The notes under the pieces: generated by a model
Databases searched by the model: none
What the model was told of the DNA's origin: nothing
The model's input: the letters and a program-made list of their open reading frames with translations, nothing else
Origin: Pseudomonas kribbensis
GTDB taxonomy: Bacteria > Pseudomonadota > Gammaproteobacteria > Pseudomonadales > Pseudomonadaceae
DNA length: 64,000 bases
NCBI RefSeq assembly: GCF_003352185.1
Contig: NZ_CP029608.1
Coordinates: 1 to 64,000 of the forward strand
Direction of reading: 5' to 3'
Shown here: in pieces, positions 21,850 through 28,754 of the stretch
How the letters are laid out: every line of letters begins with the position of its first letter
Position numbering within the stretch: the stretch's first letter is position 1
Translations under genes and position numbers: made by a program

Positions 21850-22407
21850 ATGGTCAACAGTTGGCGTGTGCAACAAGCCGCACGAGAGATTCGCGCCGGG
21901 GCGGTGATTGCCTATCCAACCGAAGCCGTCTGGGGGCTGGGGTGCGATCCATGGAATGAAGAAGCGGTGGATCGCCTGTTGGCGATCAAGAACCGTTCGG
22001 TGGACAAGGGGTTGATCCTGGTCGCCGACAACATTCGTCAGTTCGACTTCCTGTTCGAGGATTTTCCTCAGGATTGGATCGACCGAATGGCCAGTACCTG
22101 GCCGGGGCCGAACACCTGGCTGGTGCCACATCAGAACCTGTTGCCGGAGTGGGTGACCGGGGTGCATGACACCGTGGCGCTGCGGGTCAGCGATCATCCG
22201 CAGGTGCGGGACTTGTGCTCGCTGGTGGGGCCGTTGATTTCGACATCGGCCAACCCGCAAGGCCGGCCAGCGGCGAAGACTCGCTTGCGGGTCGAGCAGT
22301 ATTTCCGTGGTCAGGTCGATCTGGTGCTGGGCGGAATGCTCGGCGGGCGCAAGAACCCGAGCCTGATCCGCGATCTGGCGACCGGCAAGGTTGTGCGCCC
22401 GGCCTGA
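21850..22407 (+). CDS. tsaC: Threonylcarbamoyl-AMP synthase
   Basis: TsaC makes threonylcarbamoyl-AMP from Thr, bicarbonate and ATP for the t6A37 modification of ANN-decoding tRNAs. The YrdC fold is recognised by [25 protein letters not shown], the [13 protein letters not shown] block and [12 protein letters not shown]. 185 aa, short form without the Sua5 domain. It marks the left edge of the accessory operon; in PAO1 the next gene is qor. Confidence 0.94.
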
Positions 22408-22679
22408 TATTACCCTTGGTTAATTCTGTGAGTACTCCTCGGCTTTCATGGCGAGGAGTACTACGCGTGCCTGCGATTTTTCCTTCATGTAACTGAACAT
22501 ACTGACCGGTTTTTCGGTTTGAATTTTTCCTTTCTATGTCAGATGAATCGGTAAGTATTCATTTGTTGTAACTTTTCCGACGTTATTCTCAGAAGCCGTA
22601 CAGTGGCGGTTTTTCTAAAAACATTCATTATTTCAATGCGCTCAGAAAACTTCGACAAGTTCACGGCTGCGGAGAAGAA
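22408..22679. other. AT-rich gap upstream of the accessory operon
   Basis: No gene is seen in these 272 nt. The base composition is clearly more AT-rich than the flanking core genes. It must hold the operon promoter, but I cannot identify -35/-10 elements with confidence. An 11-bp inverted repeat lies at 22431-22462. Confidence 0.6.
22431..22462. repeat. 11-bp inverted repeat after tsaC
   Basis: AGTACTCCTCG (22431-22441) and CGAGGAGTACT (22452-22462) are perfect inverted copies with a 10-nt loop. No T tract follows directly. It could be the tsaC transcript end, an operator, or a junction scar of the inserted operon. Confidence 0.6.
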
Positions 22680-23351
22680 ATGGATATCACGTATTTGCAA
22701 TTAACGGACTGTCTGCAGGCCTTACAGGCGACCTTGAAAAGTCGTTATGAAAGTTATCGTATCGTTATTCTTGAGGCAGGCTCGGATACTCGAGAGTTTG
22801 AACAGTTTGTTGCTCGTCATTTTCGACTGCGATTGCAGCACTACATGCTGACACCCAAAGCCAGACTGTTTGAAACACACCTGGCAATTGCCTCGCGCAG
22901 TACTCACTTTTTGCTGTATCTGCACGACAGACCCATGGCTGTATTGAGAGTCACGCCTGCGCCGTTCGAATGGGCATCACTGGCGCAACAGCAGCTTTCT
23001 CCTACCGTGGCGCTATCGCGCCATGTCGAGTTCAGCCGCTTGATCAGCCACTCGCAAAATCAGTTCCCGATGTCGGTCAACGGCCTGCTGGCGGCTGCCA
23101 CGGAATGGGCGATCAGGCACGGTCATGAAGGCGTCACCGCCCTCTGCCGATCACCGCAACGGCGATTCTTCCAGCGCTTCGGCCTGACGCCGATCACTAC
23201 CGACGCTCTGCACATCGAACACCGCAAGCGTGGTGATTACTGGCTGCTTTCAGCTCAATGGCAGCAGATTTTCGCCGCACTTCAACAACCCATCCACCTG
23301 CTCGCCAATCCATCGGAGAAGCACCTTGATGAATGCGCCCCTCAGTTTTAA
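22680..23351 (+). CDS. GNAT-fold acyltransferase, LuxI/FeeM-like (function unknown)
   Basis: A 223-aa protein, first gene of the accessory operon. The segment HVEFSRLISHS (115-125) resembles the E-x-S-R-F/L motif of LuxI acyl-homoserine-lactone synthases and FeeM-type N-acyl amino acid synthases. The surrounding order (variable N-terminus, core strand with RPMAVLRVT, then LLAAATEWAIRHGHEGVTALC and FFQRFGLTPI) fits a GNAT fold. The likely role is transfer of an acyl chain to an amine, but donor and acceptor are unknown. The ATG follows GGAGAAG by 5 nt. The last 23 nt overlap the next gene. Base composition is more AT-rich than the neighbouring core genes. The family placement is my reading of motifs and was not searched. 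Confidence 0.62.
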   Translation: MDITYLQLTDCLQALQATLKSRYESYRIVILEAGSDTREFEQFVARHFRLRLQHYMLTPKARLFETHLAIASRSTHFLLYLHDRPMAVLRVTPAPFEWASLAQQQLSPTVALSRHVEFSRLISHSQNQFPMSVNGLLAAATEWAIRHGHEGVTALCRSPQRRFFQRFGLTPITTDALHIEHRKRGDYWLLSAQWQQIFAALQQPIHLLANPSEKHLDECAPQF

Positions 23352-24063
23352 CCAACAGTTGAGCCTGCTCGATGAGCGAATCGAAAAGTCATGGGCCGAT
23401 ATTCTGGAGAATTCGCGGCTGGTTAAAGCCATTCGCGAAGGTGAAGTTTCCAGAGCGTTATATGCGATCTACATGATCGAAACCTTTCACTACACGGCAC
23501 ACAATGCGCGAAATCAAGGATTGGTGGGTGTGCGACATGCAGATAATCCGGTGTATGCAAAGTTCTGTTTTGAACATGCGGCACAGGAAGTCGGTCATGA
23601 AAAGATGGCATTGCACGATGTCATGAGCCTTGGTCTGAAGCATGAAGTGTTCGATATTCCATCTGCACTTCCAGAGACTGAAGTACTGATTGCCTATTTG
23701 TACTGGATTTCCTTTACCGGTAATCCGCTACAGCGACTGGGTTATAGCTACTGGGCAGAAAATGCCTACCAGTTCATTACGCCACTTATCAACCGTCTGA
23801 GTGAAACGCTGGAGCTGAAACCGGCTCAGCTGACGTTCTTCGTTGCACATTCCGACATCGATATCGAGCACTTCAACGAAATCAAACTCATGCTGCAGCG
23901 CACCTGCAAGCGTCAGGACGATTGGGATGCCGTTGCTACCGTCATGGAAACCAGCCTGCGCCTGACCGGCAACATGCTTGAGGCCGTTTATGAGCAATAC
24001 GAGGCCTGGCAAAACGGGCTGGCGCCCCGCTATGACTTTCTCCACGCCCTGGACAGCCAATGA
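23329..24063 (+). CDS. Heme-oxygenase-like diiron oxidase (HDO family)
   Basis: A 244-aa, all-helical protein of the iron-containing redox (TenA/PqqC/heme-oxygenase-like) class. Candidate diiron ligands are E51 (ETFH), E87 and H90 (EVGHEK), and H174, D178 and H181 in the H-x3-D-x2-H pattern of helix 3 (HSDIDIEH). SznF- and BesC-type enzymes have this arrangement. Such enzymes use Fe2 and O2 for N-oxygenation, C-C cleavage or desaturation, and the reaction here cannot be told. I start at the ATG at 23329 (MNAPLSFNQQ), overlapping the upstream gene; the upstream in-frame ATG at 23230 gives an uncharacteristic extension inside that gene. Confidence 0.78.
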   Translation: MNAPLSFNQQLSLLDERIEKSWADILENSRLVKAIREGEVSRALYAIYMIETFHYTAHNARNQGLVGVRHADNPVYAKFCFEHAAQEVGHEKMALHDVMSLGLKHEVFDIPSALPETEVLIAYLYWISFTGNPLQRLGYSYWAENAYQFITPLINRLSETLELKPAQLTFFVAHSDIDIEHFNEIKLMLQRTCKRQDDWDAVATVMETSLRLTGNMLEAVYEQYEAWQNGLAPRYDFLHALDSQ

Positions 24064-24105
24064 AGATCTCGTGCCCATGTTCATATCAGGTGGCTGGAGG
24101 CAGGC

Positions 24106-25200
24106 ATGGCTGACTATTTCGACCAGCTCAACTACACGCTGGGGGATGAAGACACCGCGCTTGAGTACGCGATCCTGCCCAGGCATGCCCGACACGTGCT
24201 GGGTATTGCCGGATGCGGCGGGCGCCTGTTGCCGCTGCTGGCCGCAAACCCGTTACGCATGACCTGTAGCGACATCAGTGCGCCGCAACTGGCGTTCACC
24301 CGGTTGCGTCTGGCGTTGCTGGAACAGACCGATCACGAGTCGTTCATGGAGTTCATGGGCTATCGGATGGAAAGTCCGAGGGCACGGCGCCGATCCATTT
24401 TTCAGCAATTGATCTTGCCGGCCGCAGACCGTCGCTGGTTGTCCGGGTTGTTTCAGTCCCGACACTGGGAAGCGCCAATTTACATGGGCGCATTCGAGCA
24501 GACCCTGAAGAGGTTGGCAAAGATCGCCGGACTGTTTACCGGCAAGGCGGGCCGGGGCATTTTTCAGTACGGCTGCCTTGAAGAACAAACGGAATATTAC
24601 CGAAAGCGCTTTCCGCTCAAGCGCTGGAAGGCCGTGATCGCTTTGCTGGGCAACGCAGCAGTGCTCAATTCGCTGTTGTACAAAGGTTCATTTCCACCCA
24701 ACAACCTTGGTATCAGTTCCCGTGCGGCCTATCTGGAAATTTTCCACAGGCTGTTCACCTCTCAGGTGGTCCGGGAGAGCTTTTTCCTGCAAATGCTGTT
24801 TTTCGGTGAGCTGCGCTATCCGCAAGGCTTTCCGCTGGAGTGCGATCCGGCAATTTTCCAGCGTGCCCGTGAGGGGCTTCAGCAGTGCGAGTTACGCATT
24901 GTGCAGGCTGACATCCTCGACTGTGTTGCCAGGGAAACGGGCATCGATTTCGTATCTCTGTCCGACGTGCCCTCCTTCATGCCCGAAACGGCTGGTACCC
25001 ATGTTCTGCAGCGTCTGGCACCGGCGCTGGCAGAAAACGCGCGGGTGGTCATGCGTGGCCATTTGCATGTGGTTCAACCCGATTGTGCAGGTTTCTGCGA
25101 TATCACCCATCAGTACCAGGCAGAAATCGCACGAGAAAAAACCCAGCTCTGGCGTGTGCAGGTCTATCGCCGGACAGCCGCTATGCAGGTATCCCGATGA
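24106..25200 (+). CDS. BtaA-like (DUF3419) 3-amino-3-carboxypropyl transferase
   Basis: A 364-aa protein resembling BtaA, which moves the 3-amino-3-carboxypropyl group of SAM onto diacylglycerol in betaine-lipid synthesis. Seen: N-terminal EDTALEYAILP, a SAM-binding turn HVLGIAGCGGRLLPLL (30-45), an acidic strand end CSDISAPQLAF (54-64), then the helical insert with FQYGCLEEQTEYYRKRFPLKRW. No BtaB-like N-methyltransferase lies nearby, so betaine lipid is unlikely to be the end product. An aminocarboxypropylated small molecule is more probable. It starts 42 nt after the diiron oxidase gene and overlaps the next gene by ATGA. Confidence 0.72.
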   Translation: MADYFDQLNYTLGDEDTALEYAILPRHARHVLGIAGCGGRLLPLLAANPLRMTCSDISAPQLAFTRLRLALLEQTDHESFMEFMGYRMESPRARRRSIFQQLILPAADRRWLSGLFQSRHWEAPIYMGAFEQTLKRLAKIAGLFTGKAGRGIFQYGCLEEQTEYYRKRFPLKRWKAVIALLGNAAVLNSLLYKGSFPPNNLGISSRAAYLEIFHRLFTSQVVRESFFLQMLFFGELRYPQGFPLECDPAIFQRAREGLQQCELRIVQADILDCVARETGIDFVSLSDVPSFMPETAGTHVLQRLAPALAENARVVMRGHLHVVQPDCAGFCDITHQYQAEIAREKTQLWRVQVYRRTAAMQVSR

Positions 25201-26465
25201 ACACCTTTCAACCGACCGTCAATTGGGTCAAAAACCGTGTCCGGCAATCTCGTGATGATCAACAGCAGTTATTCGATGCCGGGCTGAATGGTCTGAAACT
25301 GGTCAAGCGTGAAGGCAAGGAGATCGAACTCGACAGCGGCGAACGGCTGACGGAGTTTCTCTCATGTTCTTACCTGGGGCTGGAGTGTGATCCACGCTTG
25401 ATTCACGGAGCCGTGAGCGCCGCCGAAGCCTTCGGCGTGCAGTTCGCTGCCGCGCGAACCCGAGTCCTGCTGCCTCCCATGCGTGAGCTGGATGAGCAAC
25501 TGAGCCGGATATTTCAGGGACACACGGTTACCTTCAACTCCGTAGGCAGTGCGCATCTCGGCTGCCTGCCGCTGCTCGGTTCCGGCGAGATGCCTTCCTA
25601 CCCCTTGAGGCGTGGTCCCTGCTGGATTGTTGACCGCGCGGCGCATGCCTCGATGCAGGTGCTGCAGGGCATTCTCTGGCAGTTCGGGCCGGTAAAGCGC
25701 TGCGATTGCAGCGATTTGGAGCAAGTGGAGGATGCGTGTCTGGCGGCGGTCGCAGCGGGTAACTCGCCCATCATCCTGACCGACAGCATTGGCTCGATGC
25801 GCGGTTTGTATCCGGTTAACCGCCTGCTGCAACTGGCGGAGCGTTTTGACGGTTATCTCTATGCGGATGATGCCCACGGTACCTCGATCCACGGAGCGGC
25901 CGGGGGTGGGTATGCATTGGCCGCTGCAGAAGAACGGCTGCGCGGTCGGCTGATCCTTCTGTCGTCGCTGTCCAAGGCATTCGGTGCAACCGGTGGCGCG
26001 ATCACCGTGCGTACGGCAGCCGATGCCGAGCTGATACGCAGCCACGCCTCGACCTATACGTTTGGCGGACCGCTTTCCATGGCCGGAGTGGGCGCGGCAG
26101 TTGTCTCCGGGAATATCCACCTGTCGCCGGAGCTGGGTCAATTGCAGGCCGCACTGTGGCGAAATATCGCCGTGATCGACGGTCTGCTTGGGCCGGTGCT
26201 GGGCAATCATCAGGTCGAGTCCCCCATTCGTTTTGTCCGCGTCGGAGCCGAAAGAGATGCGATCTGTCTGGCGCAGCATTTGCGCCGGCGGGGCATGGCG
26301 GTCACTACCGCACTGTTTCCGGTAGTGGCCAAGGGCGAGGCGATTCTGCGCCTGGCCGTCAGCGCGAGCCACAGTCAGCGCCAGTTGGAATCTCTGGCGA
26401 GTGCCGTCCGTAGCGGATTCGACGAGTTGGGCATTCGTCAGGGAGGATGGGCTAATGAGCAATGA
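25197..26465 (+). CDS. PLP-dependent alpha-oxoamine synthase family enzyme
   Basis: A 422-aa fold-type I PLP enzyme of the alpha-oxoamine synthase group (BioF, KBL, SPT, CqsA). These enzymes condense an amino acid with an acyl thioester, usually with decarboxylation. The PLP lysine is K260 in LLSSLSKAFGATGGAIT. H150 (DRAAHASM) would stack on PLP, D196 is in TDSIGSMRG, and D224/H227 are in YADDAHGTSIHG, so the active site looks complete. CqsA is a precedent for using SAM itself as the amino acid. The ATG at 25197 overlaps the upstream stop. The 3' end overlaps the next gene by 11 nt. Confidence 0.85.
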   Translation: MNTFQPTVNWVKNRVRQSRDDQQQLFDAGLNGLKLVKREGKEIELDSGERLTEFLSCSYLGLECDPRLIHGAVSAAEAFGVQFAAARTRVLLPPMRELDEQLSRIFQGHTVTFNSVGSAHLGCLPLLGSGEMPSYPLRRGPCWIVDRAAHASMQVLQGILWQFGPVKRCDCSDLEQVEDACLAAVAAGNSPIILTDSIGSMRGLYPVNRLLQLAERFDGYLYADDAHGTSIHGAAGGGYALAAAEERLRGRLILLSSLSKAFGATGGAITVRTAADAELIRSHASTYTFGGPLSMAGVGAAVVSGNIHLSPELGQLQAALWRNIAVIDGLLGPVLGNHQVESPIRFVRVGAERDAICLAQHLRRRGMAVTTALFPVVAKGEAILRLAVSASHSQRQLESLASAVRSGFDELGIRQGGWANEQ

Positions 26466-27753
26466 TCCACTGATGGATTTATCAGCCGAGGCGCTTGCAC
26501 AAAAATTGGCTCACGCGCGTTCTCTGCCGTGGTTCCGTGCGCTGTATCCCCGGATTCTGGAGGTGCAGACATTGGCTGATCTGCATCGACTGCCGGTTCT
26601 GGCAGTGGAAGACGAGTTCGGCGGTGAGTTGTTTTCCGCACTCGGCGATGCGTCGCACCGAGCACCCGGTGGCGGACTGACCCTGACCTCGGGAGGGAGC
26701 ACCGGCAATCGCAAACAGATCACCCATTCCTGGACGTTTAACGCCGCGATCGTGCCTCTGGGGGCACGGATGTTTGATGTGACGGACGAGCATCCGGAGG
26801 TGGTCATCAACTGCCTGACGGCCGGTGAAATGCAGGGTGCGTTTCATTACGCGACAGCCATCGTCCAGCATATTGGCGCACGCTTGTTGCCCGCCGGCTC
26901 ACAGATGGGTGTTCAGCGCATTGCCGAGCTGATTCAGTCACACTCGGCCGATGCGCTGATGTGCACCCCCTCCTTTGCCGCCGCGCTGTTCAATCATGAA
27001 AACGTTGGTTCAGAACAGTTGGGCAGTCTGAGGTGGCTTTACTACATTGGAGAACCCTGCAGTAAAACGCTGCGCAACCAATTGGCCCGGGATTGGCCGA
27101 AGCTGAAAATTCGCTCGTTGGGCTACAGCTCGACGGAAACGGGTCCCATCGGCTTTCAGTGTGCACACCTTGAACACGGTTTTTATCATTTGCATGCCGA
27201 CGCGATGCTGGTCGAAGTGGTTGATCCCCTGACCCTGCAGGCCGTGGCAGAAGAGAAGACAGGCGAGTTTCTGCTGACGCCCCTGCTGCCCGATCATGCG
27301 CCGCTGTTTCGCTACAGGATCGGGGATCGTGGGCGAATCCAGCGCACTGTGACGAATTGTGCCTGCGGCAGCTCCATGCCGGTTCTGGCCCTTGAGGGAC
27401 GGGTCGAAACATCGATCAAACTGGGTGGGGCGATCGTCACTCAGTCACAGGTATTGCACGTACTCCGGCAGATCCTGCCTGAGTTGGACACTGCAGATGT
27501 CCAGGTGCAGATCGATCGACAGCCCGGTGGAGCGCACATGCGTCTGGCTATCGCCGAGGACAGGCTGACTGCCGTCACGCAAACCTTCATCGAAGGTGCT
27601 TTGCAGGTTGAAGGGCAGGCGAGCGCATTGCTCAGGCTGCCCGGCGTGTTGGGGCTGGAGGTGAAGCGTCTTGCCCGTCAGGCATTTGAAACGACCTTGA
27701 CCGGCAAGACACCGTTTTTTGTGACGTTGGAACCGACCCCGGCCAAGTCATGA
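26455..27753 (+). CDS. PaaK-like adenylate-forming ligase (ANL superfamily)
   Basis: A 432-aa acid-activating enzyme like phenylacetate-CoA ligase. The phosphate-binding loop LTSGGSTGNRKQI is at about 77-89, the A5 motif is GYSSTETGPI, and the ribose-binding region is FRYRIGDRGRI. A Cys-containing CACGSSMPVLALEGRVE precedes the C-terminal domain, as in PaaK. It should convert a free acid to acyl-AMP and then a thioester, possibly feeding the oxoamine synthase. No carrier-protein gene is present, which favours CoA as acceptor. ATG at 26455, with GGGAGG 8 nt upstream. It ends 23 nt before the convergent qor gene. Confidence 0.82.
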   Translation: MSNDPLMDLSAEALAQKLAHARSLPWFRALYPRILEVQTLADLHRLPVLAVEDEFGGELFSALGDASHRAPGGGLTLTSGGSTGNRKQITHSWTFNAAIVPLGARMFDVTDEHPEVVINCLTAGEMQGAFHYATAIVQHIGARLLPAGSQMGVQRIAELIQSHSADALMCTPSFAAALFNHENVGSEQLGSLRWLYYIGEPCSKTLRNQLARDWPKLKIRSLGYSSTETGPIGFQCAHLEHGFYHLHADAMLVEVVDPLTLQAVAEEKTGEFLLTPLLPDHAPLFRYRIGDRGRIQRTVTNCACGSSMPVLALEGRVETSIKLGGAIVTQSQVLHVLRQILPELDTADVQVQIDRQPGGAHMRLAIAEDRLTAVTQTFIEGALQVEGQASALLRLPGVLGLEVKRLARQAFETTLTGKTPFFVTLEPTPAKS

Positions 27754-27776
27754 CGATTGGCCGGAGAAGTCTGTGG

Positions 27777-28754
27777 TCAGGGCAGCAGAACGGTAGAGCC
27801 AGTGGTGCGTCGCGCCGACAACTCGGTCTGCGCTTTCGCCGCATCAGCCAACGGATAACGCTGGCTGATATCCACCTTGAGCTTGCCGCTGGTGATCATC
27901 CCGAACAGCTCATCGGCCATGCGTTGCAGGTTTTCGGCGTTGTTGGCGTAGGTCGCGAGCGTTGGCCGGGTGACGTACAGCGAGCCTTTCGCCGCCAGAA
28001 TCCCCAGGTTCACTCCGTCCACCGCGCCCGAGGCGTTGCCGAAGCTCACCAGCAGACCGCGAGGCGCCACGCTGTCCAGCGAGGCCGGCCAGGTGTCTTT
28101 GCCGACGCCGTCGTACACCACCGGGACTTTTTTCCCGTCGGTCAATTCAAGCACCCGTTGGGCGACGTTTTCGTGGCTGTAATCGATGGTTTCCCAGGCG
28201 CCGTGGGCCTTGGCCAGTTCGGCTTTCGCTGGCGAGCTGACGGTGCCGATCAGCTTCACTCCCAGCGCTTTCGCCCATTGGCAGGCCAGCAAACCGACGC
28301 CGCCGGCCGCCGCGTGGAACAGAATGGTTTCGCCGCCGTTGAGTTCATAGGTCTGGCGCAGCAGGTACTGCACGGTCAGGCCCTTGAGCATCACGCCGGC
28401 GGCGGTTTCGAAGCTGATGGCGTCCGGCAGGTGCACCAGATTGGCCTCGGGCAGGACATGCACGTCGCTGTACGCGCCCAGCGGGCCGCTGCCATAGGCC
28501 ACGCGGTCGCCGACCTTGAACCGGGTGACGGCGCTGCCCACCGCCTCGACGATGCCCGCGCCTTCCGCCCCCACACCCGACGGCAATGCTGGTGGCGCGT
28601 AGAGACCGCTGCGATAGTAGGTGTCGATGAAGTTCAGGCCGATGGCCTTGTTGCTCACGCGAACCTGCTGCGGGCCGGGCGCGGCAGGCTGGTAGTCAAC
28701 GTATTCGAGCACTTCGGGGCCGCCATGGGTGCGGAACTGGATTCGCTTGGCCAT
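27777..28754 (-). CDS. qor: NADPH:quinone oxidoreductase (zeta-crystallin type MDR)
   Basis: A medium-chain reductase without structural zinc that reduces quinones with NADPH. It has an N-terminal GroES-like domain (GLNFIDTYYRSGLY) and a Rossmann segment HAAAGGVGLLACQWAKALG. The 325-aa length fits Qor. The start is the ATG ending at 28754 (MAKRIQFRTHGG). It is convergent with the accessory operon and divergent from hemF, as in the core PA0023-PA0024 order, so it marks the operon's right boundary. Confidence 0.95.
   Translation of the reverse strand: MAKRIQFRTHGGPEVLEYVDYQPAAPGPQQVRVSNKAIGLNFIDTYYRSGLYAPPALPSGVGAEGAGIVEAVGSAVTRFKVGDRVAYGSGPLGAYSDVHVLPEANLVHLPDAISFETAAGVMLKGLTVQYLLRQTYELNGGETILFHAAAGGVGLLACQWAKALGVKLIGTVSSPAKAELAKAHGAWETIDYSHENVAQRVLELTDGKKVPVVYDGVGKDTWPASLDSVAPRGLLVSFGNASGAVDGVNLGILAAKGSLYVTRPTLATYANNAENLQRMADELFGMITSGKLKVDISQRYPLADAAKAQTELSARRTTGSTVLLP

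Follow-up and report, generated by a model that had tools for sequence, protein, structure and literature searches.

A five-gene operon between tsaC and qor

The first 64,000 nucleotides (nt) of contig NZ_CP029608.1 from Pseudomonas kribbensis (hereafter the window) contain an operon of five genes, all on the forward strand, in the interval between tsaC and qor of a 6.32 Mb chromosome. The first gene (22680..23351) encodes an N-acyltransferase of the FeeM/N-acyl-homoserine lactone (AHL) synthase fold, here called GNAT. It is followed by genes for a heme-oxygenase-like diiron oxidase (HDO; 23329..24063), a BtaA-like DUF3419 protein that is a putative S-adenosylmethionine (SAM)-dependent 3-amino-3-carboxypropyl transferase (24106..25200), a pyridoxal phosphate-type alpha-oxoamine synthase (AOS) of the PRK07505 subfamily (25197..26465), and a PaaK-like acyl-adenylate/coenzyme A (CoA) ligase (26455..27753). 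GNAT and HDO overlap by 23 nt, DUF3419 and AOS by 4 nt (ATGA), and AOS and PaaK by 11 nt, while a gap of 42 nt separates HDO from DUF3419. The core genes tsaC (21850..22407, forward strand) and qor (27777..28754, reverse strand, stop at 27777) form the left and right edges of the insertion. Nothing in the list of open reading frames between these two looks like a regulator, transporter, or carrier gene.

The DUF3419 gene is present in 13 of 298 genomes of the genus, the window's own included, and the window's DUF3419 protein is nearest to one from Pseudomonas kribbensis (97%). Together with 14 loci from a profile scan of named genomes, these gave 27 Pseudomonas loci on 23 distinct contigs, four contigs being in both sets. 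All five genes are found in one order in 27 of 27 loci, with PaaK truncated by the locus edge in 13 short ones, and in all 14 long loci the set is flanked by tsaC and qor. Because the order is kept throughout, the five-gene run is not a product of chance, and that explanation is ruled out. We also fetched 30 tsaC loci from a survey that gave 58 tsaC matches in 59 genomes. In 22 of these, tsaC adjoins qor with no operon gene matched and 48 to 1097 nt between the two matches; six show GNAT and HDO before the locus ends, all of them among the 13 DUF3419 genomes; and two have GNAT alone. Because most tsaC loci have qor adjacent without operon genes, we read the operon as an insertion, or as an old cassette often lost, at a single site. 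This HDO is rare in wider draws as well, being found in 2 of 369 genomes of a class-wide draw, its own included (E<=1e-25), and in 4 of 299 genomes from the family of Trinickia (E<=1e-30).

G+C content is 0.41 in the intergenic front, 0.54 in GNAT, 0.50 in HDO, 0.575 in DUF3419, 0.61 in AOS, and 0.59 in PaaK, with 0.63 in tsaC; means for the five genes over 14 Pseudomonas loci are 0.56, 0.49, 0.58, 0.60, and 0.61. Because G+C is lowest at its front, that part of the cassette has a more foreign appearance than its rear. An 11-bp inverted repeat, AGTACTCCTCG ... CGAGGAGTACT (22431..22462), was read 3' of tsaC in the sequence and in an alignment of 11 upstream regions. It recurs in altered form in the aligned Pseudomonas loci, and it is likely a tsaC terminator or a repeat element. 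The conserved upstream element TTTTCCNACGTNATTNTCAGAA (22573..22594, forward strand) lies 85 nt 5' of the GNAT start. It has a single site in the window's genome, allowing up to 2 mismatches, is found with 0 and 2 mismatches in two aligned loci that carry GNAT alone, and is possibly part of an operator or promoter. No sigma-70-like site was found upstream of GNAT, and Rfam gave no match for the region of the element.

Family assignment of the five proteins

No Pfam or NCBIfam model matches GNAT at E<=1; the protein was assigned by its fold and relatives. In Foldseek comparisons it matches FeeM and the AHL synthases, with 10-21% identity over the fold alignment, and it belongs to the FeeM fold; Pfam FeeM matches 12 of 22 GNAT relatives at E<=0.1. 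R90 and R120 are found in 22 of 22 alignment rows and E117 in 19 of 22, and we take these residues to be the Arg and ExxR motif of LuxI-type synthases, which is also apparent in the TofI alignment. GNAT is not obviously an ordinary acetyltransferase, and because it has the FeeM/AHL-synthase fold, amino-acid N-acylation is probably an early step of the pathway.

HDO matches PF14518 with 61.5 bits (cut-off 28.9). Of the solved structures, 3dde lies closest (E 3.5e-75, 229 residues); it is annotated as being of unknown function. Among PDB entries for HDOs whose function is known, MboA comes first by sequence profile (E 1.7e-6). According to the MboA paper, that enzyme builds an alkyne on a peptide side chain via iterative desaturation, its metal ligands are Glu86, His89, Glu143, His172, Asp176, and His181, and in several HDOs the substrate carboxylate coordinates iron (PMC13185094). 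At the MboA positions our HDO has E87, H90, E144, H174, D178, and H181 in 27 of 27 rows (26 of 27 for H90), and it is predicted to be a diiron, O2-using enzyme. By analogy, an N-acyl amino acid could likewise bind the iron through its carboxylate. Because Tyr82, the proposed base of MboA, is replaced here by an invariant His (H83, in 27 of 27 and 7 of 7 sequences), the chemistry may differ from that of MboA. In P. anatoliensis (L017, 9224-9958) the HDO gene is split into two pieces, and another Pseudomonas HDO (P0133) has Gln at ligand position 90, which possibly indicates decay of the operon in these cases.

DUF3419 matches PF11899, the family of BtaA, over its full length with 86.3 bits (cut-off 28.2), and a confident structure model (mean pLDDT 90) has a Rossmann fold of the class I methyltransferase type that carries a helical insert. 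Membership of this family suggests aminocarboxypropyl transfer, with methyl or aminopropyl transfer as candidate alternatives, the latter being worth testing because SpeD genes are neighbours in three hosts (see below). None of the remaining four genes of the operon matches a methyltransferase family that could supply a BtaB partner, the search being confined to the operon and the rest of the genome not searched; a betaine-lipid operon was dismissed on this ground.

AOS matches PF00155 (62 bits against 19.7) and NF005697/PRK07505 (401 against 342). It falls below every equivalog cut-off for CqsA, BioF, Kbl, and serine palmitoyltransferase, the best being bioF at 143 against 426, and scores 44.8 bits with the CqsA-type model NF005526 (cut-off 428). 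AOS relatives that are 39-42% identical lie directly 3' of a major facilitator superfamily (MFS) transporter gene on Klebsiella and E. coli plasmids (L117:6883-9224 and L178:4886-7224), a possible two-gene make-and-export unit. PaaK matches PF00501 (50.8 bits against 29.9) and falls below the cut-off of the PaaK equivalog TIGR02155 (49.9 against 646).

These results agree with a first-pass annotation of the window, which had reported five same-strand genes with the coordinates and junctions given above, the same five families (HDO, DUF3419, AOS, and PaaK confirmed here by curated models, GNAT by fold and relatives), the lack of a regulator, transporter, or carrier, and insertion into a core block.

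A three-gene module recurs in distant bacteria

The DUF3419 profile scan of named genomes gave 113 relatives, from which 79 distinct loci were kept. HDO adjoins DUF3419 in 28 of the 79, and a GNAT of the same family is also present in 25 of these 28. The three without it are from Sorangium, Pyxidicoccus, and a contig that begins inside HDO. One of the 25, L030, counts weakly, because the single open frame spanning its GNAT and HDO includes 243 N; the apparent GNAT-HDO fusion in that frame shows nothing. The protein sets used comprised 22 of 120 listed DUF3419 proteins plus the window (A1), 22 of 120 listed HDO proteins plus four loci and the window (A4), and 8 of 39 GNAT proteins plus 13 loci and the window (A3). 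Because A3 includes 13 of the loci counted, the GNAT matches of those loci are in part built in, and three of them, L037, L042, and L049, entered the set by position and by weak GNAT or FeeM matches (of L037 and L049). The window sequence by itself sufficed to find GNAT in each of the 27 Pseudomonas loci, as well as in L031-L035, L038, L041, and L093; neither L093 nor any of L119-L124 was part of A3.

The GNAT-HDO-DUF3419 triad is found in Myxococcota, in Pseudomonadota other than Pseudomonas, and in Flavobacteria, and in one case on a Deefgea plasmid (L093). In a tree of 69 of 80 loci (11 near-duplicates omitted), the DUF3419 proteins of the triads form a single clan with support of 100/100 that spans Myxococcota, Pseudomonadota, and Bacteroidota, and whose sole other member is L058, a contig starting at its DUF3419 gene. 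Within the tree a Corallococcus and a Trinickia protein stand side by side (100/99), and because of this grouping horizontal transfer of the module is suggested. Corallococcus exercitus has two different triads in one genome (L033, L034).

Neither GNAT nor HDO was found in any of the other 51 DUF3419 loci (L039, L040, L043-L048, L050-L092), which are mostly from Bdellovibrionota and of which seven, L058 among them, offer less than 1500 nt upstream. With a GNAT of this family in 0 of 51, these HDO-less loci were rejected as members of the module. Many of them are preceded by three same-strand genes of about 320, 340, and 690 residues.

The genes that follow the triad vary by host, AOS and PaaK being those of Pseudomonas. 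We found no match to AOS or PaaK inside the module in 14 non-Pseudomonas loci with HDO and DUF3419, nor in Deefgea; in L042, AOS gives a weak hit (E 2e-8) that is more than 7 kb off and on the opposite strand. A gene of the AdoMet (SAM) decarboxylase type, SpeD, follows the triad in Deefgea (L093:11044-11487, by annotation), Corallococcus (L034:8152-8595, PF02675), and Trinickia (L038:7982-8371, by similarity). The myxobacterial neighbours encode aspartyl-hydroxylase-like, Acetyltransf_6/FemAB-like, and flavin mononucleotide (FMN)-binding proteins, the families having been tested in Sorangium L028 and Corallococcus L031 and assigned elsewhere by similarity. In Flavobacterium L037 the triad is followed by genes for a protein of 217 residues that matches no family, for a PlsC-like acyltransferase, and for a desaturase of fatty acids. 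Among the findings that would speak against its proposal, the first-pass annotation had listed a lack of co-occurrence of the genes elsewhere. This proved half true: GNAT, HDO, and DUF3419 do recur widely, while AOS and PaaK join them in Pseudomonas alone among the loci examined, and the complete five-gene set was not seen outside Pseudomonas in these loci. The five-gene set is an elaboration, in Pseudomonas, of a dispersed three-gene module.

GNAT and HDO form the smallest unit

We examined seven places where HDO occurs without DUF3419 nearby: one that stands for 23 Pseudomonas plasmid records, all giving the same 35% match, one from Agarilytica, and five genome places. GNAT adjoins HDO in six of the seven (E 5e-49 to 9e-9), namely on a P. 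syringae pv. actinidiae plasmid and an Agarilytica plasmid, in two small-genome relatives of Trinickia, in a second Trinickia copy, and in another relative. The smallest unit seen is therefore an acyltransferase with HDO. At the seventh place (L125:7089-10780, reverse strand), genes for a beta-ketoacyl-acyl carrier protein synthase III (KAS III), a GH3 amide synthetase, and HDO form one run with a 4-nt overlap and a 3-nt spacing, and GH3 occupies the seat of GNAT beside HDO. GH3 enzymes couple acids to amino acids. Because GNAT and GH3 are unrelated amide-forming enzymes that share this seat, HDO would act on an N-acyl amino acid; the shared seat, with GH3 at one locus, is our best clue to its substrate.

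The P. syringae plasmid locus, which stands for the HDO matches in the 23 Pseudomonas records, holds a PaaK-GNAT-HDO-flavodoxin-EamA-hydrolase cluster beside LuxR and anthranilate synthase genes (L119:2488-11132), and is a different pathway that shares the GNAT-HDO pair. In three Pseudoalteromonas records (NZ_CP077771.1:419328-419912 and two others), HDO matches distantly (22-23% identical) within a protein that is annotated as AMP-binding, possibly a ligase and an HDO in one chain.

The pairs also bear on whether the operon serves a membrane aminolipid, with DUF3419 acting as BtaA on diacylglycerol, GNAT as OlsB, and HDO hydroxylating the lipid. This would fit the match of DUF3419 to PF11899, the BtaA family, and the PlsC-like acyltransferase and desaturase added in Flavobacterium. 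The OlsB/OlsA logic (PMC11631085) offers a template. We nevertheless regard an aminolipid as improbable: GNAT-HDO pairs occur without DUF3419, the partners elsewhere are SpeD, aspartyl-hydroxylase-like, and GH3 genes, the Pseudomonas operon has by family matches neither a BtaB-type methyltransferase nor an O-acyltransferase, and no part for AOS and PaaK to play in a lipid of this kind is apparent.

Some genomes keep GNAT alone

GNAT is carried by 19 of the 298 genus genomes, in 13 together with DUF3419 (the same 13 as above) and in six by itself. All six keep it between tsaC and qor. In the tree these genomes fall into two separate clades, each with three members; the branch uniting one of them with the window's clade has support of 90/99, with very long outgroups. 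The GNAT frame is open in 6 of 6, and dN/dS is 0.03-0.04 in one GNAT-only clade and 0.12-0.15 in the other, with 0.07-0.36 for six pairs of full carriers. The lone GNAT is under purifying selection, and because it is kept alone in this way it probably serves some purpose by itself, in signalling or self-protection. On the simplest reading the four rear genes were lost twice while GNAT was retained; the alternative history is a gain of the four.

These genomes would also fit a split AHL-like signal pathway, in which GNAT performs the acyl transfer of LuxI, DUF3419 supplies a SAM-derived homoserine part, and PaaK makes an aryl-CoA as in RpaI-type synthesis. The AHL-synthase fold with its Arg and ExxR residues speaks for such a pathway, as does the use of SAM, or of its aminocarboxypropyl group, that is expected of the two partners alike. 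LuxI has an acidic SAM-binding pair. Where that pair would fall, the window GNAT has no acidic residue (positions 70-74), and Asp stands at 71 in 8 of 22 rows, in a loosely aligned region. As the operon also has no LuxR-type gene and GNAT occurs without DUF3419, we hold this pathway to be quite improbable.

A proposed pathway

Taking family, fold, and neighbourhood together, we propose, with a probability of about 0.5, that the product of the operon is a small N-acylated metabolite derived from an amino acid. PaaK would activate a free carboxylic acid, and the FeeM/LuxI-fold acyltransferase would couple an acyl group, carried by CoA or acyl carrier protein, to the amino group of an amino acid. 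The diiron HDO would hold the acylated product via its carboxylate and oxidise it with O2, most simply by desaturation. DUF3419 would transfer the 3-amino-3-carboxypropyl group of SAM to a hydroxyl or amine, thereby either supplying the amino acid for acylation or decorating the product, and in Pseudomonas AOS would add a decarboxylative C-C step. The recurring heart would be acyl transfer plus HDO, with DUF3419 as part of the widespread module and PaaK and AOS as the Pseudomonas addition. The earlier proposal that the set makes a small molecule thus stands as far as a biosynthetic cassette is concerned, with the change that its heart lies in the N-acyltransferase and HDO rather than in the aminocarboxypropyl or AOS steps. 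Because some lineages carry the acyltransferase alone, there is a faint hint that the product is diffusible, either a signal or an antimetabolite.

Some observations weigh against an N-acylated metabolite. Pfam FeeM does not match the window GNAT at E<=1, and two others favour its main rival, an antimetabolite with immunity. Here DUF3419 would make a homoserine ether from SAM, HDO would desaturate it to an oxyvinylglycine-like toxic amino acid, and GNAT would acetylate it in the producer, in the manner of phosphinothricin acetyltransferase. GNAT persists alone, open and under purifying selection, in two clades without the other four genes, as an orphan immunity gene would, and the Foldseek rows include a phosphinothricin acetyltransferase from P. 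syringae (9igl). The rival has an analogy in pathways of the rhizobitoxine/aminoethoxyvinylglycine (AVG) type, which combine homoserine-ether formation with 3,4-desaturation. Desaturation of a side chain is also what the HDO MboA does (PMC13185094). We consider the antimetabolite unlikely, as GNAT adjoins HDO even without DUF3419 (6 of 7 places), an amide-forming GH3 replaces GNAT in one locus, the folds nearest to GNAT, ranked by aligned length, belong to acyl-amino-acid and AHL synthases, and there is no exporter within the operon.

On the N-acylated metabolite reading, the recurrence of the first three genes in distant bacteria points to a natural-product family. A bolder version, which we advance as doubtful, makes GNAT-HDO-DUF3419 the core of a family of SAM-derived N-acyl amino-acid signals or antimetabolites in at least three phyla. 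GNAT and the aminocarboxypropyl transferase would share the job of LuxI, HDO would finish the amino-acid part, and hosts would tailor the product with AOS and PaaK in Pseudomonas, SpeD in Trinickia, Deefgea, and a Corallococcus, or a hydroxylase and a FemAB-like protein in myxobacteria. If the proposal is true, these loci make up a family of small, recognisable pathways that bring no carrier-protein genes with them, and one of these pathways occurs in a minority of Pseudomonas. The N-acyltransferase-HDO pair is then a search handle for the family, and this branch of HDOs is predicted to oxidise N-acyl amino acids. The two GNAT-only clades are a natural experiment on the acyltransferase acting alone, and the five-gene set is small enough for heterologous expression.

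Comparison with known systems

The enzyme families are all known; what is new is their combination, the GNAT-HDO pairing, and the GNAT-only genomes. The first-pass annotation knew of no characterised pathway with this gene set, and among the papers listed by our searches of the open literature, 5.39 million papers in all (subscription papers and gene-cluster databases lay outside it), we likewise found no description of the operon or the triad. Searches of the same literature returned no example of an HDO acting on N-acyl amino acids.

GNAT resembles FeeM and LuxI-type synthases (2g0b, 3p2h, 1ro5, 6wn0) in its fold and its Arg and ExxR residues; unlike them it has no Pfam match, and it stands beside HDO or alone at the tsaC-qor site. 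The likeness of DUF3419 to BtaA is one of family membership, over the full length of PF11899, whereas its neighbours are HDO and GNAT rather than BtaB. The P. syringae plasmid cluster shares with the operon an HDO, a PaaK, and a GNAT of the same family (E 6e-10), all adjoining. It differs in having no DUF3419 or AOS and in having its own regulator, exporter, and flavodoxin, and its HDO is 35% identical and its PaaK 28% over 188 residues.

In the mangotoxin mbo system, MboA shares the six ligands and the E-x2-H-[DE] motif with our HDO, but acts on a tripeptide made by ATP-grasp ligases (PMC13185094), whereas the operon has neither ATP-grasp genes nor a dedicated redox partner. The closest experimental precedent for our model is TyzA/TyzC, in which an acyltransferase sharing the GNAT fold precedes an O2-dependent desaturase from a different family (PMC10404671). 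The Tyz system has a flavin oxidase of the nitroreductase superfamily and a ThiF-like cyclase where the operon has a diiron HDO, DUF3419, AOS, and PaaK. The logic of TyzA-TyzB-TyzC and of OxzA-OxzB, which make acyl-oxazolones, is like that proposed here: a FeeM-fold N-acyltransferase, followed by an O2-using oxidase that acts on the N-acyl amino acid (PMC10404671).

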